Source: Planctomycetota bacterium (GTDB taxonomy: Bacteria > Planctomycetota > Phycisphaerae > WQYP01). Taken from it: 29,367 nucleotides of DNA. Below the pieces are notes generated by a model that was not told the DNA's origin, did no database searches, and saw only the letters and a list, made by a program, of their open reading frames with translations. Position numbers and translations under genes: made by a program. Positions 2,599 to 27,586 of this stretch are shown piece after piece (the first letter of the stretch is position 1; every line of letters begins with the position of its first letter). Where the stretch lies: positions 1 to 29,367 of the forward strand of contig JAJZGH010000019.1 in the NCBI GenBank assembly GCA_021798635.1. Reading direction: 5' to 3'.

Positions 2599-2609
2599 GT
2601 TTGTACTCC
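2599..2609. repeat. Left target-site duplication of the IS4-family element
   Basis: GTTTGTACTCC, identical to 3935-3945 on the other side of the element. On the minus strand it supplies GGAG, the ribosome-binding site of the PEP-CTERM gene starting at 2597. Confidence 0.93.
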
Positions 2610-3934
2610 AGTAGTGTCCGGTTAAAAATCCCATAAAACAAGCTGTTTTGAGGGCAGATCCCCGTGGGCAGTCGCATTTTCTCCCGCAAACACCTCTTTT
2701 ATTGGGGTTTTATCGAATATTGAGACGCTTAATGTTTGCAGAATTGTGTAGGGGCTGGCCTTGATGCCCCAGCGTTCTCTTGCTATGGCCACGAGAATGT
2801 AAACGCTGATGGCAATCCATATTTGGGTCTTGACGGCATTTTCACTTGTCCCGTAGAACGCCTTGATGCGCAGATGCTGCTTGATCCATTTGAAAAACAG
2901 TTCAATCTGCCAACGCGAGCGGTAGAGTTCTGCGATGACCATGGGTGGGAGTGTAAAATTATTGGTGAGAAACACCAGCGTCTTACGGTGCTGCTGGTCC
3001 CAGTACCGAATACGGCGAAGAGCAGATGGGTGCCCTTTGGCCGCGTAGAACCACTTTAGGGAAATGGTTTGATCGCATCTTACGCCGCTGGTTTTATCCA
3101 CAGGGCGTGATTGGATGCGTTTGAAGCGGAGGTTCTTTTTCGAGCGGGTAACAAAGAATGCACCGCTGGTTGTCCAGCGGTAAAGCCTGGCGAAATCAAG
3201 GTAGCCTCGATCTATCAGATAGAAAGCTCCGGGTTCGGGCGTGATCTCATCAAGAAACCGCACATCGTGCATTTTAGCGGGTGTTATGCGAATAAACGTG
3301 GGAATATTTCCACGCAGATCCATTTGCGTGTGGAGCTTCATTGCGTTCTGTGTGGTCTTGTAGCTGGCCCACGGGAATAGTGACATGCACAGATCAATCG
3401 TCGTGGAATCAATTGCATAGGTGATATGGTCCAAGTCAACGCGGAATTTATCCTTGGCGTAAAGTTGGCGCGCTTCGCCGATAAGAACCTGGGCCAGGTC
3501 GGCGTAGATACGCCAGTCACGAGATTCGTTGGCGTCTGCCAATGTGCTGCGCGATACACGTCCACGAATTCCCATGTGGTAGAGTTCACGATCGTGCGAA
3601 CGCAGGCACGCAACGATATCACGGAGGCTCTCGCGGTAGGTCAGTTGGGCAAAAGCCATGCAGAGGAATTGATCGAGACAGGAGAACCTCCGCGTGCGGT
3701 GGTTGCCATGATAATTCGAAACGCACTTACGAAACTGGTGAAGGGGAATCTGTCCGGCAAGTTGAGAAAATAACGTCTGTCCTGAGTTCATCGCGTGGAG
3801 CCTTTCGAAAAAAAGGCTCCAAAAATGGGATTTGCCAGGTAGGCAGTTCAAATCGATTACGACTGCAACCGCGCGCAAATGCAGTAATATAAGGCCTGCC
3901 GCCCACTTCTGTGATTTTTTAACCGGACACTACT
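2610..3934 (-). mobile_element. Complete IS4-family insertion sequence (1325 bp)
   Basis: The ends are matching inverted repeats. The left reads AGTAGTGTCCGGTTAAAA from 2610 inwards and the right gives the same sequence read backwards from 3934; they match over ~22 bp with a single one-base gap. Direct copies of GTTTGTACTCC flank the element (2599-2609, 3935-3945), an 11-bp target duplication within the range known for the IS4 family. A single transposase gene fills most of the length, and its stop codon lies within the left inverted repeat. Ends and coding frame are intact, so it may be active and recently inserted. Confidence 0.95.
2622..3791 (-). CDS. IS4-family DDE transposase
   Basis: 389 residues from the ATG at 3791, which follows AAAGGCTCC; an in-frame extension to 3878 lacks a good ribosome-binding site and homology. 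The N-terminal part (TLFSQLAGQIP, then RFSCLDQFLCMAFAQLTYRESLRDI) matches the DUF4372-type start of IS4 transposases. The catalytic triad is visible: D128 in AIDST, D194 in LIDRGYLD, and E297 within the perfect Y-(2)-R-(3)-E-(6)-K signature YRSRWQIELFFKWIK. The enzyme cuts and rejoins the element's ends. No frameshift or stop breaks it. Confidence 0.95.
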   Translation of the reverse strand: MNSGQTLFSQLAGQIPLHQFRKCVSNYHGNHRTRRFSCLDQFLCMAFAQLTYRESLRDIVACLRSHDRELYHMGIRGRVSRSTLADANESRDWRIYADLAQVLIGEARQLYAKDKFRVDLDHITYAIDSTTIDLCMSLFPWASYKTTQNAMKLHTQMDLRGNIPTFIRITPAKMHDVRFLDEITPEPGAFYLIDRGYLDFARLYRWTTSGAFFVTRSKKNLRFKRIQSRPVDKTSGVRCDQTISLKWFYAAKGHPSALRRIRYWDQQHRKTLVFLTNNFTLPPMVIAELYRSRWQIELFFKWIKQHLRIKAFYGTSENAVKTQIWIAISVYILVAIARERWGIKASPYTILQTLSVSIFDKTPIKEVFAGENATAHGDLPSKQLVLWDF

Positions 3935-3945
3935 GTTTGTACTCC
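3935..3945. repeat. Right target-site duplication of the IS4-family element
   Basis: GTTTGTACTCC, identical to 2599-2609. Removing the IS and one copy restores the sequence between the two neighbouring PEP-CTERM genes and rebuilds the GGGAG ribosome-binding site of the downstream gene. Confidence 0.93.
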
Positions 3946-4008: not shown

Positions 4009-7000
4009 TCATTCTTTCCATGTCGGATTTCTTCGCATCCGGCGCTTCAGCGCCAGCCCCGCGAATCCAATCGCCCACAATGCCAGTGCCGTCGGCTCGG
4101 GAACTGCGGGTGCGGCAAAGACGAGCGATGGATCGAACGTCGCGCCGGCAGTCGTCGGCGTTACGTCCAGCGCCACATCGACCGTGAGATTCTGATTGGT
4201 CAACAGATTCCCGATCGCCGTGCCCAGATCGAGAGGATTGTCGGTGAAATAGCCATCGGCGGCGGCGAAACTGGCGAAATTCTCAGTGATGCCCGCCGAG
4301 CCATTGTTGAGGGTAATGGAAAATGCCACGGTGCCGTTACCCGTGTAATTGGCTGATCCAAGGCCGACAATCAGATGCTGGGATGGATTCATCATCAAGG
4401 CAGGATTAATACTCCAGTCAACCTCACTGTGATATGCGGTAGTCGAACCAATGTACATATCTTCGGTTGCCAGCGTCATTACACCCAGCACCGCGTCGCC
4501 GGCGCTGGTGACCGCGCTGTGTACATTGGGCGTGATAACGCTGCCAACATCGCTGCTGCTCGGCAATGCCGTCACAAAGGCGGCGGCCTGAATGCCGGCA
4601 GCCAACCCTTCACTACGGGCGGCACTTTCCGCGTTGGCAAACGCCTCGGCGTGGGTGGTGTTCCCGCTGATCACCGGTGCACTGGCGACGGCGATTACGC
4701 TGCTTGCCGTTCCACCGCGAGACGATGCCGTGGCAGTGGCCGACCCACCCAAACCGGTTCCGTACGCGTCCGCAGTCGCCGGGCCGCCGACAACGCTTGC
4801 GCCTGAAAGGAGCCAGTTGCCGGAGGCACCGCCGACCGCTACAGCTTTCGCAATTACGGCGCTTGATGCAAGGCCCGTTGCGGTTGCGGAGGCAATTGCG
4901 CCGCCGGGGACCCCGGGTACTTCATTGTAGCTGAAATAACCTCCGCCGTTGCCGCCCGTAGCCGATGCTACAACATTGGCCGAACTGTCTCCCAGAATAG
5001 CCCCGTTTGCTGAAGCCAGAGCGTCTCCGGAGCTTCCTCCGTACAGAGTGAAATCAGGCCCATTTCCGTAACCAACGGCACCGCCATAACCACCCTGGGC
5101 CACGGAATCAATATTAAGTGATCGGGGCGCGTCGGAGGAACTGGCGGTAAACGCAAGGGCGCTGGTTGCGTCACCACCCGCGCCACCGTTGCTCCCCGTA
5201 GCATTGCCCCCCGCCCCTCCGATGGCGGTTTGGTCAAGAGTCAGGTTTCCGCTTGTAATCCCCGTGACGGCGTTGGCTAACGCCTCGCTGGCTCCAGTAC
5301 CAGCGTAGGACGAAGGATTGGAAGAATACCCACCTCCACTTCCACCGGTTACAATTGCCGCGACGGCCACGTCCCCAGAGGCAGACTGCCCAAACACGGA
5401 TCCGACCGCGGCAACGCCTCCATCCGTCGCGCTAGCCGGTCCAAATGTGGTCCCAGCCCCACCGGTAGCCGAGGCCATAACGCTAACTGAGGCTGCACCG
5501 AAGACGTGCGCCGTTGCGCCGGCTAAGGCGGTCCCTCCGGTCGTCGAATTGAAAGAACTGGTCGGCGAGTTAAATACGCTTCCACCAGCGCCGCCCAGGG
5601 CGGACGAATCAAGGACTACGCTCTGCGGCGAGTTCGTGGCGGTGGCTGTAAAGTTAAGGTCGCTCTGCGCGTTGCCTGCGGAACCCGGGGTTGCATCATA
5701 CGTGTCGCCCGCGCTGCCGCCCACCGCGGTTTGCCGCAGCACGAGATCGCCGCTGGTGGCCCCTGTAACGGCGTTAGTGAGCGCCTCGTCGGCACCGTTG
5801 CCACCGTTGCCGGTCACGCCAATGCCCGCCATGCCCGAACCACCGTTGCCCCCGACGACGGTCGCGGAAACCGTGACCGCCCCAGAAGCGGATTGGCCCG
5901 AAAGTGTGCCGATTGTCGCGTCACCTCCGTTTTCTCCCACCACCGGATCGCCACCGCCGCCCGAGCCGGTTCCTCCCGTCGCTGTAGCGGTGACACTGAC
6001 AGTTCCCCCGCCCGACGACTGACCCGAGGCATTGCTGACCGCAGCCCCGGCACCGTTACTTGCCCCCGCGATCGCCGAGACCACAACGTCCCCGCCCCCC
6101 GTTGAAACTGCGGTCGCGGAGCCGACTGTTCCCGTCCCCCCCATTTTGCCCAGACCTCCCTCCGCAACCGCGTCGACGGTCACTGTATCGGGACCGTCGT
6201 TGCGGCCGCTGGCGCTGGCATAGCCCGCACCGCCCAGACTATCTCCACCGGAGCCGTACCCCCACGCGTATACAGAGACGGCGGAATGCCCCGCCGAAGT
6301 TCCCGTGGAAACGCCAATTGCCGTAGCAGTTCCCAGCGCGCCGGTCCCCCCCGGGTTGTTAACGATGGTGATAGTGCTACCGCTTCCGGAGGTATTTCCC
6401 CCTGTGCCAACGGGGTTGGCTAGGTAGGAATTGGCGGCAGCGAACGAATAAATATTCCCTGCCCCCGTCAAGCTGATATTCGCGGCGGCGCTTCCATTTG
6501 CGCCTTGGACACTCGGGAGAATCCACGAGACCACACCTCCCGTGGCATAACAGGTTCCGTTCAGGGAGGAAGGGCCACTCTCGTCGACCGTAAGATTGTT
6601 ATACGCACTCCCCGCTGTAGAACCTGAAATGCTGGTGGCCCCCCCTCCGGTCGCGGCTTGGGTCAGCGTCAGGTTCCCGGTGGTACTGCCGCTGACAGCG
6701 TTAGTCAATGATACGCTTCCGCCGTTGCCACCAGGGCTGCCGCTTCCGCCATCTCCACCCATCAGAGTAACGCCAACAGTTACGTTTCCCCCGCCTGTCG
6801 ATTCGCCAAAAATCGGATCCGTACCAAGCGAGGCGGTGCCGCCGTTGCCCCCACCCGTTGCGATATTTGAACCCAGCGCTCCAGATGGACTATAGCCGCC
6901 ATTCCCTGCAAGTCCGGCAGCGCGGAGCGTGAGGTCGCCTGTCGCATATACCGAGCCGGACTCGACCGTCGCATTTCCACCGTCGCCGCCGACGCCGGCC

Positions 7001-7542: not shown

Positions 7543-10173
7543 CTACGCCGCCGACTGCATCGGATGTTTTCTCCGCTTCAGCGCCAGCCCCGCGAATCCC
7601 AACACAAACAGCGCCCACGCTGCCGGCTCGGGTACCGCGGTGACCAGAATTTCACCGGCGTGGCTGTAATCCAGCACATAGCCGGGGGTTATGTCGGTGA
7701 ATGTCCCGGTTAACGCGCCGGTGTAGTTGATTATGTCATAGGGCGTGGTGAAGGTACTTCCGGCCAGTTGCGATAGCGACAGGGCGGAGCCGGAATCTAG
7801 TTGCAGGCTGCCGCTAACTGATAATAGTCCGCTTGCCCCGGCGGAGCCAAGCTGAATATCCAATGCACTGCCTGAGGCCATTTCCACCCCGTCGGGTAGA
7901 GAAGAATAGGCTGCCGCGGCCACAATTTTCCCCCCGGAAAATGCCTGTAATATTCCGTGGTTGGTCCAAAGTCCCATCGAGTTTGGAATTGTGGATAGGG
8001 TCGCAGTGTCACCCGAATAGGCCGTTACCGAGCCGTAATTTGCGTCCAGGCTCACGCTAAGTGACTCGCCTGAAACCGTCGCTGAACCAGCGTTGATGGT
8101 TCCGTCATTGGTCGTCGAAATCAGCATTGCATTGTTTCCCCCGGAACCGGCCAGGCCATTGATGACCCCCGTCTGGGTCAAAGTCAAACCGGCTGAACCC
8201 TGCACCTGCGACCCATCGGCGAATAAGTTGATGGTCCCGTCATAGGATTGGTTCGGGTTATTCTGGTGGCTGAAATATATGGAATCTGATGCTCCGGTTA
8301 TGTTGACTGCATAGCCGTTGGCCTCAAGTCCCACGCTATTGCCGGCAACGGAATCAATGCCCAGATGCATCGAACCGCTTATATTGTAATCAGATCCCAG
8401 CGTCACGTTTTGTAACACCAGGAAGTTTGCCTCGAGATAGGGCGTTCCATTCCTTTGCGTCAGGACGGTTAGCTCGCCGCCCTCAATTCGGGGCAGGGCG
8501 TTCAGGCCGATGGAGGAATCGGTCGTATGCCATACTCCGCTGGAGGGACCAAAGACAAGGTTGTTACCCGTGTTAATCAGTGTACCGGTAAAATTCACCG
8601 TGGCTCCGTTGGGATTGAATACGCCATTGGCACCCGAACTGGCCAGGCCAACGTCGGCGGCGTGGAATACACCATCCAGGTTGATTGTTGCGCCGGCGAC
8701 TGCCTGAATTGTCCCGGTGTTGGACCAGGTGCCACTGAGATTTAATCCGTCCCCGGCCCCAATCTGAATCGAATTCGAATTGGACCAGGTGCCCGAAAGC
8801 GTAACATCGGCACCTGCTGCGGAATTAGCACCCAGTGCGTTGGCAGTTGTAATGGTCCCCGTATTGTTCCAGTTGGTCGCCAGCGGATCGGCGGCCGTGG
8901 AATTTTGCCCCAGGAATAAACCGGACCCACCATACACGGTTATCGCGCCGCTGTTGGAGAAATTTGGGCCAACAAAATCCGCGGTAACACCGGCTACGGT
9001 GGATGATCCTACGTTAATGCTGCCGGTGTTGGTCGAACTAATCAACGCGCCACCGTTGGCGTTGATGGTCCCGGTGCCACCGCTTTGTGCCGAGCCGTAG
9101 AAAATAAAATCGTGGCTGGCAATGTCGACCGTGCCGTTATTGGTCCACGAACCGTTGAAATCCAATGTTGCCCCGCCGGAGTTTGTCAGCCCCGCGGCGT
9201 TGCTGGTCTGGATCAGGCCGTCGTTGATCCAATTGGCGGACGAAATATCCAAGGAGCTTCCGCTGTAGACGGTGACCACGCCGCCAGCGGCATTGGTGAA
9301 GGATGTGGAGTTGATCACATTGTGCCCACTGCGCAAACTGATGTTTCCGTTGTTCGTAACATCTTTCCCGGTAATGGCAACACCGCCGGCAACACTGCTG
9401 ATAGTCGCCGTTGAGCCGATCGTCAGCGATCCGGCGGCGTTCACCTGGCCGGCTACGTCCAGGGCACCGTTGTCGATGACCTCGCCGACATCCGTGCCGC
9501 CGGATGTTGTGGCGTCTTGAAAGTTCACCGGAACGCTGTAAAAGTTAAGCGTGTTACCGTTGAGGTCGATTCCCTGGGCAGAAGAAGCCGAGTTGACAAT
9601 ATTTAATGTCGTGCCGGCACCCGACGCGAAATAGCCGCTTACCGTAAGGTCACTAAGCAACGTGACATTTTGCAATGTTCCACTGCCGTCGGATGCCATG
9701 GTGATAGCGGAGTTGGCAGCATTTGAAAGCACGTCAACGCCGGCGTTTGCAATCTCCCCGCCAAAAAGCCAGAGGTTCTGGTTTGCCGTGCCTATCGTCA
9801 GCACACCGGAGGCACCGGCGTTGTCCGGCTGCGCGAGGTTCAATACGCCGCCTGAGCCAATTGAAAGCGACTGGTTACCCGATCCGAGTGTCAGGCTATC
9901 CACGTTTACACTGGTTCCCAAGCCGACAGAACCGGGCGAAATGGTCGCATCGTACACAGTGCCCGCCGGCGCACCATTATTGGGGTCGTTGGGATTGCTG
10001 GACCAGTTGGCGGCTGTGGCCCAATCACCACCTCCTGCTGCGCCGGTCCATGTTGCCGTGACAGTGGTGTATGTGGTAGATGCGTTGGCGACCATGGGCC
10101 GCAGCGCTCCCAGGGAAATCGCAGCGCATGACAACAGCAATGCCTGGCGTCGGTAAGAGATTCTGCTGAACAT
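7543..10173 (-). CDS. Large secreted beta-strand repeat protein with PEP-CTERM signal
   Basis: 876 residues from the ATG at 10173, chosen because GGGAG lies 8 nt upstream; an ATG six codons earlier (10191) has no such site. The N-terminus has a basic region and hydrophobic core ending in MVANA (signal peptide). It is followed by the motif TATWTGAAGGGDW...NWSSNP, shared with the neighbouring 1215-residue protein and common at the N-terminus of planctomycete/verrucomicrobial PEP-CTERM surface proteins. The body is a succession of short Gly/Asn/Ser/Thr-rich strands (WNNTGTI, WSNSNSI, WSNTGTI, WTNHGIL) of autotransporter-like beta-helix type. The last ~100 residues (from LDIQLGS to VPEPAAWALFVLGFAGLALKRRK) nearly duplicate the end of the neighbour. 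Expected to be an exosortase-processed surface protein. No catalytic motif is visible. Confidence 0.88.
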   Translation of the reverse strand: MFSRISYRRQALLLSCAAISLGALRPMVANASTTYTTVTATWTGAAGGGDWATAANWSSNPNDPNNGAPAGTVYDATISPGSVGLGTSVNVDSLTLGSGNQSLSIGSGGVLNLAQPDNAGASGVLTIGTANQNLWLFGGEIANAGVDVLSNAANSAITMASDGSGTLQNVTLLSDLTVSGYFASGAGTTLNIVNSASSAQGIDLNGNTLNFYSVPVNFQDATTSGGTDVGEVIDNGALDVAGQVNAAGSLTIGSTATISSVAGGVAITGKDVTNNGNISLRSGHNVINSTSFTNAAGGVVTVYSGSSLDISSANWINDGLIQTSNAAGLTNSGGATLDFNGSWTNNGTVDIASHDFIFYGSAQSGGTGTINANGGALISSTNTGSINVGSSTVAGVTADFVGPNFSNSGAITVYGGSGLFLGQNSTAADPLATNWNNTGTITTANALGANSAAGADVTLSGTWSNSNSIQIGAGDGLNLSGTWSNTGTIQAVAGATINLDGVFHAADVGLASSGANGVFNPNGATVNFTGTLINTGNNLVFGPSSGVWHTTDSSIGLNALPRIEGGELTVLTQRNGTPYLEANFLVLQNVTLGSDYNISGSMHLGIDSVAGNSVGLEANGYAVNITGASDSIYFSHQNNPNQSYDGTINLFADGSQVQGSAGLTLTQTGVINGLAGSGGNNAMLISTTNDGTINAGSATVSGESLSVSLDANYGSVTAYSGDTATLSTIPNSMGLWTNHGILQAFSGGKIVAAAAYSSLPDGVEMASGSALDIQLGSAGASGLLSVSGSLQLDSGSALSLSQLAGSTFTTPYDIINYTGALTGTFTDITPGYVLDYSHAGEILVTAVPEPAAWALFVLGFAGLALKRRKHPMQSAA
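7567..7872 (-). repeat. C-terminal PEP-CTERM cassette, DNA repeat copy A
   Basis: About 305 bp encoding the last ~100 residues (GSAGASGLLSV... to ...FAGLALKRRK). It is highly similar to 10281-10587, including long identical DNA runs around the codons for SGSALSLSQLAGSTFTT and GYVLDYSHAGEILVTAVPEP. This indicates duplication or gene conversion between the two neighbouring genes. Confidence 0.85.
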
Positions 10174-10254: not shown

Positions 10255-13200
10255 TCATGCACGGACGGCCCGCTTCGCAATTTTTCTCCGCTTCAGCGCC
10301 AACCCCGCGAATCCCAGCGCAAACAACGCCAGTGCCGTCGGTTCCGGTACGGCGGTAACCAGAATTTCACCGGCGTGGCTGTAATCCAGCACATAGCCGG
10401 GGGTTACATCGGTGAATGTCCCGAACAATCTGCCGGTGTAGTTAACAATGTCATAGGACGTGGTGAAGGTGCTGCCCGCCAACTGTGATAGCGATAAAGC
10501 CGAGCCGGAATCCAATTGCAGGCTGCCATCCACGGTCAGCAGGCCGCTGGCACCCTTGGAGCCAAGTTGAACATCCAATGCGCTGCCGGAGGCAAAAAGC
10601 ATGCTTGTGTTGGTGGGGGAAGTTGTCGACACCGGGACGATATTTAACTGGCCGCCGCTGGCTATTTCCACATTTCCCGTGATGGGAAAAAAGCCGACGG
10701 CGATTTTACTGGCCGTACCCGCGGCGACATCAAGGGTGCTGCCGACTTGCGGCTCCAAACTGCTGTCCACCGTCGCCCCGGTCAACATTAATGTGGTGCC
10801 GGCAGTGAGATATATAGTGTTGCCGCTAACGGTGGTGTTGGTCAGGGCCAGAGTTCCGCCATTGGTGGCTTCGAGGATCTGGTTGTTAACCACGGTGCCG
10901 CCGTTAATTTCCAGTATGCCCCCGGCTACATCGGCATTGATAGTTCCGTCATTGGTCAGGGTGCTGATGCCCTTTAGTGAGCCCGTCCCGGAAATGGCAC
11001 CGCCGGCTGTCAGAGTGTACCCGTTGCCCTGAAGAACGCTGGCCCCGTTGAGCACGGTTTGGACACCCAAATCTGCTGCGCCCGCCAGTGCCAGTGTTGC
11101 CGAGCCGGTGCTGTCGCCCACATTGATCGCGGAGTTGCCACCGTTGCTACCGATGAAACCTTCAATATTTAATGTCGCGGCATGGGCAATCTTCATCGTG
11201 CTTATAGTAAATAGCACACTGGTGGTACCGGCATTATTGATCAGGCTGGCAGCGCCGGCAGCCACGGTAATCACGCTGCCGGTGGAGGCGTCCAGCGAAA
11301 CTCCATTGAGGGTGGCTCCGCCGAGCACCAAGCTGCTGCTGCCATCGAGAGACAACTGGTTGTAGGCATTGCTGCTATTGACCGTCGTATTGGTCAAGGC
11401 CAGCATACTGCCGTTGATGGCCTCGAGCGTTCCTTTACCAGCCACGGTGGTGCCGTCAATTTGCAGTGTGCCGCCGTTGGTGGCTTCGAGGATCGCGTTG
11501 TTGACCAAGTTCGTGCTGCCAATTTCCAGCGTCCCGCCCGTCACATCACCATCGATAACACCGTCGTTGGTCAAGGTGCTCATTCCCTTCAGCGTGCCGG
11601 CACCGGAAATCCCTCCAACTGTCAGTGCGTAACCGTTGCCCTGAATAACACTGGCTCCGTTGAGTACCGTTGGCGTGCCCAAATTTGCTACACCCGCCAG
11701 CGCCAGCGTGGCCGAGCCGGTGCTGTCACCGACGTTAATCACACCGTTGCCACCGCCGTTGCCAATGGAACCTTCAATATTTAACGTCGCAGTGCCCGCA
11801 ATGTTCACTGTGCCTTGGGTGGTAAACGGTCCGGAACCGCTATTGTTTATCAGGCTGGCGGTGCCCGCGGCCACGGTAATCACGCTGCCGACATAGGCGT
11901 TCAGCGAAACTCCATTGAGCGTGGCACCGCTAAGCATCAGAATGCTGGTGCCATCGAGCGATATCTGATTGATGTTGCTGCCACTGCTGCTTACCGTCGT
12001 ATTGGTCAACGCCAGAGTTCCGCCATTGGTGGCTTCAAGCGTGTGATTGTTAGTCACGGTGCCGCCATCAATTTCCAGCGTGCCGCCGGAAACGTCGGCG
12101 TTGATAATGCCGTAGTTGGTTAAGGTGCTGATGCCCTTCAGTGTGCCGGTACCGGAAATCCCTCCAACGGTCAGAGCATAACCATTGCCCTGAATGACAC
12201 TGGCCCCGTTGAGCACCGTTGAGGTGCCCAAATTTGCTACACCCGCCAGCGCCAGCGTGGCCGAGCCGGTGCTGTCACCGACGTTAATCACCCCGTTGCC
12301 ACCGCCGTTGCCAATGGAACCTTCAATATTTAACGTCGCAGTGCCCGCAATGTTCACTGTGCCTTGGGTGGTAAACGGTCCGGAACCGCTATTGTTTATC
12401 AGGCTGGCGGTGCCCGCGGCCACGGTAATCACGCTGCCGACATAGGCGTTCAGCGAAACTCCATTGAGCGTGGCACCGCTAAGCATCAGAATGCTGGTGC
12501 CATCGAGCGATATCTGATTGATGTTGCTGCCACTGCTGCTTACCGTCGTATTGGTCAACGCCAGAGTTCCGCCATTGGTGGCTTCAAGCGTGTGATTGTT
12601 AGTCACGGTGCCGCCATCAATTTCCAGCGTGCCGCCGGAAACGTCGGCGTTGATAATGCCGTAGTTGGTTAAGGTGCTGATGCCCTTCAGTGTGCCGGTA
12701 CCGGAAATCCCTCCAACGGTCAGAGCATAACCATTGCCCTGAATGACACTGGCCCCGTTGAGCACCGTTGAGGTGCTCAAATTTGCGACACCCGCCAACG
12801 CCAGCGTTGCCGAGCCGGTGCTGTCACCGACGTTAATCACACCGTTGCCACCGCCGTTCCCAATGGAACCTTCAATATTTAACGTCGCAGTGCCCGCAAT
12901 GTTCACCGTGCCTTGGGTGGTAAACTGGCCCGAATTAGTGTTGTTTATCAGGCTGGAAGCACCGGCAGCCACCGTAATCACGCTGCCGGCGGAGGTGTTT
13001 ACATCAACTCCAATGAGCGTGGCTCCGCTAAGCAGTGCATGGCTGCTGCCATCGACAAATATCTGACTCGTGTTGTTGGCACTGCTGCTTACCGTCGTAT
13101 TGGTCAAGGTCAGCGTCCCGCCATTAATGGCTTGAAGCGTCCCGCTGCCACTCACAGTGCCCCCAAGAATTGTCAATGCACCGCCGCTGGTGGCTTCGAT

Positions 13201-13902
13201 CGTTTGATTATTGACCACAGCGCCGCCATCAATTTCCAGCGTGCCGCCGGAAACGTCGGCGTTGATAATGCCGGAGTTGGTCAACGTGCTGATGCCGGTC
13301 AGCGTGCCAGTACCGGAAATAGTAGTGCCGCTGTCCGCAGTTACCGCAAAACCGTTACCATTTATGCTGCTATTACTGTCTGCCAGAGACACAGTGCCAT
13401 TTCCCGAGAAAGTGAGATTGGTATTGGCGATCAATGCGCTGGTGCTGGTGGACACGGCGGCGCTACTACCGATGTTAATCGTTCCACCATTTTGACTAAG
13501 TGTTCCGCCCGTCGTCAGACTGGAATTATTAATAATGTTGATGGTTCCGTAGTTTGTGAATGTACCCGGGCCGACATTCAATACTGGTGCTCCACCTGAG
13601 CCGGTGGACAGAGTTCCATTTCGGCCGATAATTAAACCAGCTATCGACGTTGAAACATCCAGCACAGCAGTCGGAGTGGTCGTGATCAGGACTACGTAAT
13701 TGAATCCATCATTACCGTTATCGGGAAAGGTGGCCGGCGAGGGTGTACCGGGACGATAGCTCCAATTTGCCGGGTTACTCCAACCACCGCTTCCGCCGAC
13801 CCACGTAGCAGTATACGGGGAAGCCGCCACCGGCAGCGCCATCAGGCACGCCGCAACGCAGGACGTTAATACGGTTCCGCGAATAGAAGCTCTCGCAGGC
13901 AT
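10255..13902 (-). CDS. Very large tandem-repeat beta-strand protein with PEP-CTERM signal
   Basis: 1215 residues. ATG at 13902 follows AAGGGAG at ideal spacing. The signal peptide ends near LPVAA. It is followed by TATWVGGSGGWSNPANWSY, the same N-terminal motif as in the 876-residue neighbour. The body consists of ~183-residue repeats built from lines such as INVGDSTGSATLALAG, LNGASVIQGNGY, TLTNYGIINADVSGGTLEI and LEATNGGTLALTNTTVSS. Residues ~377-560 and ~560-743 are identical or nearly so; other copies are more divergent. The C-terminus is the shared cassette ending VPEPTALALFALGFAGLALKRRK plus a basic tail. The predicted fold is a long beta-helix, exported and sorted by an exosortase, perhaps an adhesin or matrix protein. 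Binding partners are unknown. Confidence 0.9.
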   Translation of the reverse strand: MPARASIRGTVLTSCVAACLMALPVAASPYTATWVGGSGGWSNPANWSYRPGTPSPATFPDNGNDGFNYVVLITTTPTAVLDVSTSIAGLIIGRNGTLSTGSGGAPVLNVGPGTFTNYGTINIINNSSLTTGGTLSQNGGTINIGSSAAVSTSTSALIANTNLTFSGNGTVSLADSNSSINGNGFAVTADSGTTISGTGTLTGISTLTNSGIINADVSGGTLEIDGGAVVNNQTIEATSGGALTILGGTVSGSGTLQAINGGTLTLTNTTVSSSANNTSQIFVDGSSHALLSGATLIGVDVNTSAGSVITVAAGASSLINNTNSGQFTTQGTVNIAGTATLNIEGSIGNGGGNGVINVGDSTGSATLALAGVANLSTSTVLNGASVIQGNGYALTVGGISGTGTLKGISTLTNYGIINADVSGGTLEIDGGTVTNNHTLEATNGGTLALTNTTVSSSGSNINQISLDGTSILMLSGATLNGVSLNAYVGSVITVAAGTASLINNSGSGPFTTQGTVNIAGTATLNIEGSIGNGGGNGVINVGDSTGSATLALAGVANLGTSTVLNGASVIQGNGYALTVGGISGTGTLKGISTLTNYGIINADVSGGTLEIDGGTVTNNHTLEATNGGTLALTNTTVSSSGSNINQISLDGTSILMLSGATLNGVSLNAYVGSVITVAAGTASLINNSGSGPFTTQGTVNIAGTATLNIEGSIGNGGGNGVINVGDSTGSATLALAGVANLGTPTVLNGASVIQGNGYALTVGGISGAGTLKGMSTLTNDGVIDGDVTGGTLEIGSTNLVNNAILEATNGGTLQIDGTTVAGKGTLEAINGSMLALTNTTVNSSNAYNQLSLDGSSSLVLGGATLNGVSLDASTGSVITVAAGAASLINNAGTTSVLFTISTMKIAHAATLNIEGFIGSNGGNSAINVGDSTGSATLALAGAADLGVQTVLNGASVLQGNGYTLTAGGAISGTGSLKGISTLTNDGTINADVAGGILEINGGTVVNNQILEATNGGTLALTNTTVSGNTIYLTAGTTLMLTGATVDSSLEPQVGSTLDVAAGTASKIAVGFFPITGNVEIASGGQLNIVPVSTTSPTNTSMLFASGSALDVQLGSKGASGLLTVDGSLQLDSGSALSLSQLAGSTFTTSYDIVNYTGRLFGTFTDVTPGYVLDYSHAGEILVTAVPEPTALALFALGFAGLALKRRKIAKRAVRA
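10281..10587 (-). repeat. C-terminal PEP-CTERM cassette, DNA repeat copy B
   Basis: Counterpart of 7567-7872 in the adjacent gene. The similarity fades upstream of the codons for LDVQLGSKGASG, so the shared block is a defined 3' cassette and not whole-gene duplication. Confidence 0.85.
11675..12223. repeat. 549-bp tandem repeat, unit 1
   Basis: Matches 12224-12772 across the whole 549 bp with, by eye, a single difference (A at 11743 versus C at 12292). The length is 183 codons, so the reading frame is kept. Confidence 0.95.
12224..12772. repeat. 549-bp tandem repeat, unit 2
   Basis: Near-identical to unit 1, with silent positions unchanged, which points to a recent duplication or homogenisation. 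Confidence 0.95.
12773..13110. repeat. Partial, diverged copy of the 549-bp unit
   Basis: Continues the same phase (GTGCTCAAATTTGC at 12773) but accumulates substitutions from ~12795 and loses alignment near 13110. A similarly diverged copy precedes unit 1 at ~11040-11674. Confidence 0.8.
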
Positions 13903-16621: not shown

Positions 16622-16964
16622 GCCATTCCCTATCAGCCGAAGTCGGTCCGGCAGCCGCGCTACAGCATAGCGGATTTCCGGAATTTCCGGCACTGCGCGT
16701 GTCGGTGGATGCGGCAAGGTTTCCGGGCAACGCGCCCGCGCCGGGAAACCTCACATAGCCGCCGGCCATGCCGGTGGTGGAACGCACCTCGACCGCACCC
16801 CGCTTCCTCTGGACCAGACGGTGCGATCTACCTTTGATTATGCGCCATTTCTGCCCTGCCCGGAAAATTTGCCACGCCCAGTTGCAGGCGTGACAGAGCA
16901 CTGGAAAAAGCGTAAACTGCGTGGTCTGGAAATTGTTGAAAGCCCGGAAGGATTCAATACACGC
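16622..16964. other. Divergent intergenic region containing a small mobile element
   Basis: Between the membrane protein and the helicase. Half of it is the inverted-repeat element at 16707-16879. Both neighbouring genes have frames that extend into this region, but those extensions coincide with the element and are probably not translated. Confidence 0.65.
16707..16879 (-). mobile_element. Small non-autonomous (MITE-like) element, copy A
   Basis: 173 bp. Inverted ends are GGATGCGGCAAGGTTTCCGG on the left and, on the opposite strand, GGGCGTGGCAAATTTTCCGG on the right. The interior, read on the minus strand, aligns along its full length with copy B (24667-24840), sharing for example TCCACCACCGGC and GCCGGCGGCTATGTGA. 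The left end is more diverged and I find no target duplication, so this looks like the oldest copy or one with an altered end. Confidence 0.8.
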
Positions 16965-20580: not shown

Positions 20581-20680
20581 TCCCTGTAACCTGTCCCCCG
20601 TAACCCGTAACCTCGGCCCGCAAACCCGCCACCGGGTTATCACCACGGTGCTCGATGACGCGAGGATGCCCCAAGTTGCC
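20581..20680 (-). repeat. Arm B of inverted repeat, tRNA-like core plus GTTACGGGTTAC units
   Basis: On the minus strand: GGCAACTTGGGG, then CGAGCACCGTGGTGATAACC CGGTGG, then GGTTACGGGTTACGGG and GGTTACAGG. The module order is the same as in arm A (GGCAGTTGG, GAGCACCG.TGATAA.CCGGTGG, GGTTACGGGTTACAGG). Confidence 0.6.
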
Positions 20681-24658: not shown

Positions 24659-24666
24659 AGCTAATG
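24659..24666. repeat. Left 8-bp target duplication of MITE-like copy B
   Basis: AGCTAATG, identical to 24841-24848 on the other side of the element. Confidence 0.85.
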
Positions 24667-24840
24667 CGACGTGGCATGTTTTCCGGGCGGGACTGAAATA
24701 CGGCGAAATCATGGGCAACTCGCACCGTTTGGTCCAGCGGCGGCGGGGTGCGAACGTGGTGCATTCCACCACCGGCAGAGCCGGCGGCTATGTGAAGTTT
24801 ATCCGCACGGCGCGCGTTGCCCGGAAATATTGCCACGCCC
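24667..24840 (+). mobile_element. Small non-autonomous (MITE-like) element, copy B
   Basis: 174 bp. The right end read inward on the minus strand is GGGCGTGGCAATATTTCCGG; the left end is GACGTGGCATGTTTTCCGGG, giving terminal inverted repeats of ~21 bp. AGCTAATG flanks it on both sides. The interior is homologous along its length to copy A in the opposite orientation. No transposase is encoded, so mobilisation would need an enzyme from elsewhere. It sits 2 bp beyond the stop codon of the PEP-CTERM gene, and the right target copy contains that stop codon. Confidence 0.88.
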
Positions 24841-24848
24841 AGCTAATG
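24841..24848. repeat. Right 8-bp target duplication of MITE-like copy B
   Basis: AGCTAATG. CTA at 24843-24845 is the TAG stop codon of the minus-strand PEP-CTERM gene. Confidence 0.85.
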
Positions 24849-26537
24849 TGCCCTTGTGCGTCGCAACAGCAGCAGACCGCCAACGGCAAACAGTGCCAGA
24901 GCTGCCGGTTCCGGCACCGCGATTTCCGCAATCTGCGTTCCCCATTGGCTGGAACTGATCGCATATTCCTGAAAGGTCCAGAAAATATTGGGATTCGTGG
25001 GATCCAGCCACGTGGAACTGTAATCGCCCCAGCGATTGGCCCCGGAGTTTCCATAAGCTGCCAGCCCCGCATGCAGCAGCAGCGGGCTGCCAAGGGTGAT
25101 ATTCGTACCGTTTAAATTCCCGATCAGGGCATACGCGCTGGGATACATAGTTCCGCTTTCGGTAAAACCGATAACCACTTTGCCCAGAGAATTCACCGCG
25201 ATGGAGCCGAAATAAAGTGAATTATTCGGATCCGAGATCACGCCTTCCGCCAGAATAGTCGGCGCGTTACCGGTACCAGGCGTGGAAACCGGTGCTACTT
25301 CAAACCAGCGCAATGCCGACAGGCCGCTGTTCGTGGGGTTCAACACCGATTGAATCCCCCAGATATGACCGCTGCTGTCGGTGGTCAGACTGCTGCTCAA
25401 ACGGTCATCATTGGTGTCAATCGTCGCCGAAGAACCCGGTTGCGTGGCGTTGACCGGTTCGCCGGACTGGTAGTTGAACGGCACCAGACCATAATTGGTG
25501 TCCAGTCCACCGGAACTGCTGACGGCCGCAATCCGCGTTTCGTTGAGATTCTGCGTAAACGTGCCGCCGGTCCCGGACGCATCATAATTGGAAAAAAGAT
25601 ACGAGGCCTTACCCGCAGCATTTAGATCATTCACCGGCTGATTGGTAAAGCCCAAGTTATTAAAGGACTGATACGTCAGCGCGCTGTTGGCATTGAAATT
25701 GGATGTTGTGGGATTTGTACCCGTCAGGGCGCTTTTATTCACCACGAGCACTGATTCATACGCCGGGCTTGAAGCAAACTGGTTCTGGGAATTAGGTACC
25801 GTGAAATTATTGGCCGCTATCGTGACATAGTTCGAGGTAATTCCCAGGGTCGGAAAATCCGCAAAAGTCTTTCCATAACTCGCCTCGCTGGTGGTCAGCG
25901 ATGGGTTCGTCGGCTGATAGGCTCCAACCTTAAATCCGGTGAATCCGTCCAGCGGATTGGAATTTCTCGACACCGCCAAAAGAAGATCATTCGTCTGGCT
26001 TACCTTACCCGTGGAACTGTTTTCCATCACATCAATGCTGCTGGCAAACCAATGTCCGGAACTCGGGTCGTAAATCACCCGCGGATCAGAGACAAATGAG
26101 CCATATCCGCTGCTTGCCGTCGGCAATGCGACACCCGATGTAGTCCAGAAGTTTGATAACGATTCGCTCAAAAGCGGCGTCCCTACACCATTGATATTGA
26201 CGCTGGGGGTCAGGCTGTAGACGCCATAATATCCGTTGATCAATTGGACAATATTGTTCGGACCCACCGCCCCGTTGGTGTCCGGCGGCGTGTAGCCGGA
26301 ATTGCTGGACGTACCGGCGGTAAAGCTCTGCACCACCGCGCCATATGCGCCGGCGGAACTGATGGCGGATAATGCGTCCGTGCCACCATGGGACGTAATA
26401 TCCACTCCCATTGGCGGACCATTGTCGCCTACGACCGCATCCGCAACCCCCGCCCCCACCGCCAATGCCATCCCCGCCGGCACCAGAAGCGCCGCTGCGG
26501 AAATCATCCCCAGCAATTTCACACCATTCCTGATCAT
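24843..26537 (-). CDS. Secreted protein with PEP-CTERM signal (fifth, distinct family)
   Basis: 564 residues. ATG at 26537 has GAGGAT 7 nt upstream. A signal peptide (LLGMISAAALLVPAGMALA) is followed by GYTPPDTNGAVGPNNIVQLINGYYGVY. This PPDTNGAVGPxxxV motif is a hallmark of a family of large bacterial secreted proteins with a beta-propeller-like body (SDPRVIYDPSSGHWFASSID, DNDLLLAVS-like strands, SLYFGSIAVNSLGKVVIGF). The C-terminus VPEPAALALFAVGGLLLLRRTRAH is a PEP-CTERM signal, differing in DNA and protein from the four clustered genes. It is expected to be exported and exosortase-processed. The function is unknown; no catalytic motif is recognised. The stop codon lies inside a target duplication of the neighbouring mobile element, and the coding frame is intact. 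Confidence 0.88.
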   Translation of the reverse strand: MIRNGVKLLGMISAAALLVPAGMALAVGAGVADAVVGDNGPPMGVDITSHGGTDALSAISSAGAYGAVVQSFTAGTSSNSGYTPPDTNGAVGPNNIVQLINGYYGVYSLTPSVNINGVGTPLLSESLSNFWTTSGVALPTASSGYGSFVSDPRVIYDPSSGHWFASSIDVMENSSTGKVSQTNDLLLAVSRNSNPLDGFTGFKVGAYQPTNPSLTTSEASYGKTFADFPTLGITSNYVTIAANNFTVPNSQNQFASSPAYESVLVVNKSALTGTNPTTSNFNANSALTYQSFNNLGFTNQPVNDLNAAGKASYLFSNYDASGTGGTFTQNLNETRIAAVSSSGGLDTNYGLVPFNYQSGEPVNATQPGSSATIDTNDDRLSSSLTTDSSGHIWGIQSVLNPTNSGLSALRWFEVAPVSTPGTGNAPTILAEGVISDPNNSLYFGSIAVNSLGKVVIGFTESGTMYPSAYALIGNLNGTNITLGSPLLLHAGLAAYGNSGANRWGDYSSTWLDPTNPNIFWTFQEYAISSSQWGTQIAEIAVPEPAALALFAVGGLLLLRRTRAH

Positions 26538-26668
26538 AAGAATATCCTCTCAACTCAAAGCGGCCAGATAAGATAAAACCCTCGTCACTCCCGCAGCCGT
26601 TACCGGCCAACCCCGCCTCCCATTCTATCCAGCCGCTGCGCGATCGCCAACTTTGGTATGACACATTA

Positions 26669-26676
26669 ATATGACG
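26669..26676. repeat. Left 8-bp target duplication of MITE-like copy C
   Basis: ATATGACG, identical to 26805-26812. Confidence 0.85.
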
Positions 26677-26804
26677 GGGCGTGGCAATTTTTCCGGGCGG
26701 GGTAAAAAAGCCCCCTTTTCAAAGGAATGCTGAAGCCCGCCGGGATAAACCCGGCGGCTCGCCGGTCGAGTTGATGTGGGGTGCCCGGAAAAATTTCCAC
26801 ACCC
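26677..26804. mobile_element. Small non-autonomous (MITE-like) element, copy C (different interior)
   Basis: 128 bp. The ends are GGGCGTGGCAATTTTTCCGG (left) and, on the opposite strand, GGGTGTGGAAATTTTTCCGG (right): 22-bp inverted repeats with two mismatches. Perfect ATATGACG copies flank it. The interior is unlike copies A and B; it contains a CCCGCCGGG/CCCGGCGG hairpin (around 26736-26757). The same ends with a different cargo suggest that a shared transposase recognises only the ends. Confidence 0.88.
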
Positions 26805-26812
26805 ATATGACG
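26805..26812. repeat. Right 8-bp target duplication of MITE-like copy C
   Basis: ATATGACG, identical to 26669-26676. Confidence 0.85.
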
Positions 26813-26869
26813 CATTGGGCATGAACGCGCCAGTGTCCAAAACCTTCTAACTCCCAACCCCCAACCCTG

Positions 26870-26970
26870 TCACTGCCACCTGTAACCTGTCACCTGTAAC
26901 CCAGGTCGGTAACCCAGGTCGGCTCCCAACTCCTGCGTTCTAACTCGTCGTCGTCCCCTGTAACCCAGGA
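26870..26970. repeat. CTGTAACC/GTAACCCAGG mosaic repeat
   Basis: CCTGTAACCTGTCACCTGTA, then two copies of GTAACCCAGGTCGG, and later CCTGTAACCCAGG. It is related to the GTTACGGGTTACAGG units at 20481-20515 and 20583-20613. Confidence 0.7.
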
Positions 26971-27061
26971 AGGCGGGCCGCGATTGGTGAAAAAGGTTAT
27001 AGTACATGTACATGCTGAAGATTGTGATTCGGCATATTGCGGCGGCTAGCCGGGAGTGGTT

Positions 27062-27586
27062 ATGACAAGCGTAAAAATGTCTCCAAAGCCCCTGGTGGGC
27101 ATTGTGATGGGAAGTAAATCGGACTGGCCTACCATGCAACATGCGGCGGAAATACTGCACGTGCTGGAAATACCATGTGAGGCCAAAGTGGTTTCCGCTC
27201 ATCGGATGCCCGTGGATATGATCGCTTATGGACAGCAGGCGGCGGCGCGGGGAATCGGCGTAATTATTGCCGGTGCCGGCGGCGCAGCGCATTTGCCGGG
27301 CATGATTTCCGCGGTAACCATTCTGCCGGTATTGGGAGTGCCGATTCAAAGTGCCGCCCTTAATGGGTTGGATTCCCTGCTTTCAATCGTGCAGATGCCC
27401 GGCGGCGTGCCGGTGGGAACATTGGCGATCGGCAAAGCCGGGGCGATCAATGCGGCGCTTCTGGCGGCGGCGATATTGGGATTATCCGATGAAGGAATAC
27501 GGAATCGCTATGCCGCGTACCGCGCATCCATCACCGAAAAAGTGCGGGGTGAAACATTGGATGCCATACCCGCAGCACCACAATAA
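27062..27586 (+). CDS. purE: N5-carboxyaminoimidazole ribonucleotide mutase
   Basis: 174 residues from ATG 27062, with GGGAG 6 nt upstream; the GTG two codons earlier is not preferred. It converts N5-CAIR to CAIR in purine synthesis. Signatures: GSKSDWPTM near the N-terminus (substrate-binding loop), [27 protein letters not shown] and [10 protein letters not shown], all typical of class I PurE, which works together with PurK. The length is normal. purK follows 48 bp later on the same strand, so the two are probably co-transcribed. Confidence 0.97.

Follow-up and report, generated by a model that had tools for sequence, protein, structure and literature searches.

Which enzyme moves a short element that has the ends of two neighbouring copies and an interior of its own? 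This question is raised by copy C, which lies in a 29,367-nucleotide stretch of planctomycete DNA (contig JAJZGH010000019.1, hereafter the window, meaning the whole stretch that was analysed). Inspection of the sequence identified copy C as a 128-bp element (26677-26804) that is short, has no transposase gene and carries terminal inverted repeats, and a perfect 8-bp duplication brackets it. We consider, with a probability of roughly 0.87, that copy C is a MITE with the same ends as an insertion sequence (IS) from other genera of the family, which is ISKra4-like (p-MULT 4, prokaryotic Mutator type). It was most likely cross-mobilised by an enzyme of this ISKra4 type (p-MULT 4), and the arrangement of ends and interiors suggests mobilisation in trans.

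Copy C and its surroundings

The features of copy C and of its neighbours, copies A and B, are listed in Table 1. The initial annotation had described copy C as having the ends of A and B, a perfect 8-bp target duplication and an unrelated 84-bp interior with a GC hairpin, and our analysis bore this out: the three copies are related by the 22-bp end pattern, the 8-mer is exact on both sides, the interior length is exact, C falls in another interior cluster, and the hairpin core was located. Copies A and B have a common interior in opposite orientations, which is not that of C. Each has one end with no mismatch to the end pattern and another with three; the duplication of B agrees at 8/8 positions, and the flanks of A agree at 1/8.

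Table 1. Coordinates of copies A, B and C in the window, and elements with overlapping transposase frames
Feature	Position or locus	Strand	Remark
Copy A, 173 bp	16707..16879	-	A/B-type cargo; inverted relative to B; no recognisable duplication
Left target-site duplication, copy B	24659..24666	.	AGCTAATG
Copy B, 174 bp	24667..24840	+	A/B-type cargo
Right target-site duplication, copy B	24841..24848	.	AGCTAATG
Left target-site duplication, copy C	26669..26676	.	ATATGACG
Left 22-bp terminal inverted repeat, copy C	26677..26698	+	GGGCGTGGCAATTTTTCCGGGC
Interior of copy C, 84 bp	26699..26782	+	C-type cargo; cluster of 30 elements from 3 genomes; by alignment
REP-like hairpin core, copy C	26735..26758	+	GGGATAAACCC; GC-rich stem, then tail GGCTCGC
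Right 22-bp terminal inverted repeat, copy C	26783..26804	-	read inward GGGTGTGGAAATTTTTCCGGGC
Right target-site duplication, copy C	26805..26812	.	ATATGACG
Second transposase frame offset +1 (or -2) at CTTTTTCCCCC	L009, L131, L132, L133, L136		genomes G025, G043, G001, G003, G010

The RNA fold of copy C, in which the ends are paired, was more stable than those of all 200 shuffles (z -4.2). A reading of copy C as a terminator was rejected, with 0 terminator-like sites in 26400-27100, and an Rfam scan of the whole window gave no family that reached its gathering score. One promoter-like site, against 0.4 expected, lies to the left of copy C; its first hexamer begins at 26650, which leaves 26 bp to the junction. 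The available text of PMC3942029 describes targeting of promoters 13-17 bp from the junction; with the site 26 bp away, such targeting is unsupported at copy C, the one locus looked at. A composite unit formed by B, the gene and C was likewise unsupported, since its outer 8-mers (AGCTAATG and ATATGACG) agree at 4/8 positions, and the apparent 2-kb end pairs, seen at L012 and L018 and between B and C in the window, read as pairs of separate MITEs.

Several other repeats were observed in the window. An IS4-family insertion sequence with 20-bp perfect ends (CAGTAGTGTCCGGTTAAAAA) occupies 2609-3935 and encodes a 418-residue transposase (NF033592, 274.1 bits, above cut-off). A repeated segment at 1526-1603, 4038-4115, 7569-7646 and 10284-10361 lies at the ends of large reverse-strand ORFs and translates, by eye, to a VPEPTALALFALGFAG-like sequence, as in PEP-CTERM sorting signals. 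Coding repeats spaced about 549-615 bp apart were seen at 10820-13331, inside a reverse-strand ORF of 1215 residues. In addition, an ATCCGCG-type dispersed repeat is present as four copies of 23 bp (1334, 14283, 14437 and 29223), two of them identical, and CTGTAACCTGTCACCTGTAACCC-like intergenic repeats lie at 20583-20606 and 26879-26902 and also in some loci of relatives.

Spread of the ends, target-site duplications and interiors

The nearest genome examined, G001, shares 51% of the sampled words of the window, and the 22-bp end occurs there 81 times with no more than one mismatch; the one-ended places that were inspected by eye in G001 mostly read as truncated copies of the same families. 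At the same threshold, the end was found in 18 of 41 related genomes, namely 18/25 of the same family and 0/16 others, and the reversed-pattern control gave 0 matches in all 41. Across the class, 298 genomes were compared with the exact end, and 18 contained it (18/28 in the nearest family, 0/270 elsewhere).

Target-site duplications were counted for 93 two-ended elements from 12 genomes, G001 included. An element had to have both ends, with no more than six mismatches together and no more than two in the better end, and a length of 61-259 bp; copies with one end or with heavy decay were left out, as were duplicate loci and elements flanked by less than 14 bp. The G001 sample consisted of places with an end at no more than one mismatch, taken as 52 stretches, and loci outside G001 were mostly picked for having both ends listed, so that those loci are biased to intact copies. 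An exact 8-bp duplication was found for 43 of the 93 elements, and an exact 9-bp duplication for five others (MITEs at L004, L021, L088, L106 and L188), none being counted twice; exact flush repeats of 4, 5, 6, 7 or 10-12 bp were seen in none of the 93. At least six of eight bases were in common in 64/93 elements, and when left and right flanks were mismatched, in 47 of 8556 pairs; among the elements the number rose to 71/93 when at least 7/9 was admitted as well. For G001 only, the exact 8-bp duplication was found in 17/45 elements, the exact 9-bp duplication in two, and agreement at 6/8 or better in 29/45; at most two of the 16/45 elements below 6/8 have an exact 9-bp repeat. No strong motif was found in the 43 target 8-mers. 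Given that the five 9-bp elements are distinct from the 43 and that the mismatched pairs gave no exact 9-bp repeat (0/8556), the enzyme apparently duplicates 8 bp and, in fewer cases, 9 bp of the target, and duplications of 8 or 9 bp are what the available text of PMC3942029 gives for the superfamily. The initial annotation had staked its reading on further copies of the ends and on 8-bp duplications beside them. Both were found, and the 8-bp duplications that it ascribed to the transposase hold for most copies, with a few of 9 bp to be added.

Single-linkage clustering divided the interiors into seven clusters of 30, 24, 23, 8, 4, 3 and 1 elements, of which the third (23 elements) is probably several types. 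The cluster of copy C extends over three genera, with 25 elements in G001, four in G023 and one in G015, and weaker C-like matches (77-82%) were found in G004. When ten MITEs were compared with IS-bearing sequences, the matches lay at the ends and spanned 22 to 37 bp; the sole other listed match was of 21 bp of the L014 MITE to L135, away from the transposase match of L135. Because similarity to an IS did not extend beyond the first 22 to 37 bp in the interiors tested, copy C would be of the MITE type that is formed by ends around other DNA. Note that another repeat, AAAAGGTGTCAGGTACCTTT-like and near-palindromic, was seen beside or within MITE remnants at L088 and L104 of G001.

A candidate parent insertion sequence

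The initial annotation had suggested a search for a full-length IS bounded by the MITE ends, and such an element was found in a relative: that at L009 1749-3314 is 1566 bp long, has one mismatch in each end and is flanked by a duplication (TTTTTGAA) that agrees at 8/8 positions. It belongs to another genus of the family, not to that of the window, and was the only IS found with both matching ends; other close IS copies have one visible end, lying at contig ends or being decayed. Close transposases (at least 79% identity, short fragments aside) occur in G025, G043, G024, G044, G018 and G012, with a MITE-type end of 0 to 4 mismatches beside them, and transposase relatives, weak ones included, in 21/28 family genomes. 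The left end of copy C agrees with the IS end of G018 at 27/27 bp and with that of G025 at 23/24.

The L009 transposase matched ISKra4 (NF033572) at E 2.5e-42 and 145.5 bits, below the NCBIfam cut-off of 205 bits, as were two other second-frame scores (157.4 and 137.2 bits); despite these scores, ISKra4 was the best family listed for each second frame. The N-terminal part, in a separate frame, gave no match on its own, and the UPF0236 match of the transposase exceeded its cut-off. The residues D151, D247, D268, H271 and E361 were invariant across 45 transposase sequences, and ISCth4 ranked first for the predicted fold in both Foldseek and VIA-align; residues and predicted fold are both of the Mutator-type DDE kind. 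A PDB sequence search with the transposase profile returned nothing at E<=1. The VIA-align list held no ISL3, IS1595 or ISAs1 rows, an absence that is uninformative on those families. The initial annotation had looked to ISL3-, IS1595-, IS256- or ISAs1-like enzymes; the enzyme found is instead ISKra4-like (p-MULT 4), to which IS256 is related according to the available text of PMC3942029.

In five elements (Table 1) the transposase is encoded in two overlapping frames. These elements represent three lineages, the proteins of G001/G003 and of G010 each being about 40% identical to that of G025, and the conserved run CTTTTTCCCCC may be a sign of programmed frameshifting or slippage. As far as the available text of PMC3942029 goes, the ISKra4 family or p-MULT 4 (groups ISAzba1, ISMich2 and ISKra4) has in common with the elements described here a Mutator-type DDE transposase, inverted ends within 18-39 bp and 8- or 9-bp duplications, and one of its groups also has the transposase in two overlapping frames. 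On the other hand, the frameshift of ISMich2 in that text is -1, as against +1 (or -2) here, and the transposase described here scores below the curated ISKra4 cut-off.

We propose that the transposase would bind the 22-bp ends and cut or copy out any DNA enclosed by two such ends, and that the excised or copied DNA would be joined to a target, the stagger being 8 or 9 bp; since such an enzyme would act on any DNA between two ends, the interior would be free to vary. A similar situation is that of MITEAba12, which, in the part of PMC6382973 available, is also short and gene-free, has the ends of a full IS and occurs in many copies over related genomes, and its mobilisation in trans was inferred there. 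However, the parent of MITEAba12 is ISAba12, its duplications are 9 bp and it has one conserved interior of about 113 bp, in contrast to the seven interior clusters here. A literature search, with most subscription journals outside its scope, returned nothing in its partial texts on such elements linking ISKra4 and MITEs, and ISMich2 together with miniature inverted repeats was not found. Titles and the starts of abstracts on Planctomycet/Verrucomicrobi miniature inverted repeats mention no such elements, the excerpts retrieved for RAYT and MITE were from REP papers only, and the search on bacterial MITEs with 8-bp duplications yielded MITEAba12, compared above.

Empty sites, hairpin and alternative readings

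Sites without the element were found in relatives. At L089, the joined flanks minus one 8-mer align without gaps to G003, G005, G007 and G008, each with a single, diverged 8-mer at this position, and G004 has a small deletion there (empty and gap-free in 4/5 relatives). Opposite L097, G007 has a single exact 8-mer and no element, and opposite L111:3018 and L126 it has single diverged 8-mers, also element-free; G003 has a single GAATATTT opposite L121:7640. The site of copy C in G003 is no clean empty site, since the neighbouring sequence is absent together with the MITE. For the comparison of G001 with G007, 26 of 45 G001 elements had any flank match in 1.07 Mb of G007, and 12 of these 26 sites were inspected, only some being judgeable on both sides.

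The hairpin of copy C was also found elsewhere. The pattern GGGATAAACCCNNNGGCTCGC occurs in 12/41 relatives, 42 times in G001 (many within MITEs) and 28 times in G002, and the reversed pattern gave no match. By a simple motif rule, 29 of 60 inspected hairpin places lie outside MITE sequence, at least two of these 29 resembling C-type pieces; in 25 of the 29 every stem position is paired (G-T allowed), with 11 different triplets represented, which is compensatory change. On G001:C132, five hairpins lie on both sides of a Y1-like ORF of 214 residues, one of them overlapping the listed 5' part of the ORF, and the protein scores below the cut-offs of REP_Tyr_transpos and Y1_Tnp. Similarly, hairpins at 61888, 62712 and 62802 of G011:C23 lie around a sub-cut-off Y1 match at 62192-62494. 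The cargo of copy C thus includes a REP-like palindrome. Like the GTAG/CGTC REPs with their RAYTs, as presented in the available part of PMC3733652, it is a palindrome with a constant tag, dispersed and, at the two loci above, near putative (Y1-like) tyrosine-transposase genes; unlike them, it has the tail GGCTCGC (GCGAGCC on the other strand) in place of GTAG or CGTC, and is also carried inside a MITE.

The hairpins around Y1-like genes raise the question of whether the elements are themselves repeats of the REP/BIME-like kind, which a tyrosine transposase (RAYT/IS200-like) would have spread, the ends being incidental. We regard this as very improbable, given the exact 8-bp (in some cases 9-bp) duplications flush with the ends, the empty sites, and the inspected examples of other interior clusters, which have no hairpin motif; RAYT/IS200-like tyrosine transposases are not expected to make target duplications. 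The same duplications and empty sites refute the view that the inverted repeats arose by chance or are artefacts in the assembly of metagenome bins, and we put its probability as negligible. The draft genomes consist of many contigs, and some ends in G008 are close to contig tips, but the reversed-pattern control was zero, and in the separate assembly G001 all three copies (A, B and C) have the flanks that they have in the window.

The driver of the MITEs in the genus of the window deserves separate consideration. In the eight genomes of the genus of G001, no intact close transposase with MITE ends was found, which is weak evidence because the draft genomes are incomplete. The close type was found there only as a decayed tail with its end in G004, and the close IS may have been lost or may be absent from the drafts. 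Among full-length homologues in that genus, the best ones, from G001 and G003, show 41-42% identity and differ in their ends, and further distant matches (about 36% or less) were found in G005, G007 and G003. The former two are a sister IS of 1589 bp, one end of which is GGGTGTGCCCGTTTTTATCGGGAA and whose copies are 97.5% identical; since its 8-bp duplications differ between G001 and G003 (AAATTAGA and TTTCAAAT), it has moved. It has the layout GGG.GTG.C in common with the MITE ends, and might now drive the MITEs of this genus by tolerating diverged ends. We consider this unlikely, though with an appreciable chance, because the left end of copy C fits IS ends of the distant genera as described above, and the same comparison listed no resident-IS match at E<=0.01.

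A further possibility concerns sites occupied by different elements. Among 214 ends compared over six genomes, seven sites were common to different species (our own count, from 12 rows). Four hold the same MITE type, all among G005/G007/G008, as expected from vertical descent. The other three, all involving G001, hold different types; at two of them the positions agree to the nucleotide, and at the third they differ by about 9 bp. One of these sites is empty in G003, with its single GAATATTT, and has the C type in G001 and a 139-bp type in G008; G007 holds a 119-bp type there, outside the rows of this comparison because its left end is gone. At a second site, where one flank was compared, a 171-bp type was seen in G008 and a truncated A/B type in G001. 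Different types at one nucleotide are more simply explained by repeated insertion at a favoured site. That the ends act as a cassette frame, with the interior exchanged between species at a fixed site by end recombination or same-nucleotide reinsertion, seems improbable to us. Note that the 119-type MITE of G007 (L247, about 11640-11790) has a 23-bp flanking repeat, GAATATTGGCTCTTCTGGCCGAC, in place of 8 bp.

Read as a MITE with ISKra4-like ends, copy C belongs to a well-known sort of mobile DNA, and the hairpin repeat in its interior is unusual. Two separate repeat systems, one a DDE-type MITE and the other a REP-like palindrome, are joined in one 128-bp element, and one kind of ends carries all seven interior clusters. 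If the pattern of shared sites holds up, these genomes would allow in-place swapping of MITE interiors to be tested. For this family of uncultured planctomycetes, the analysis provides a likely IS parent for a large set of small repeats.
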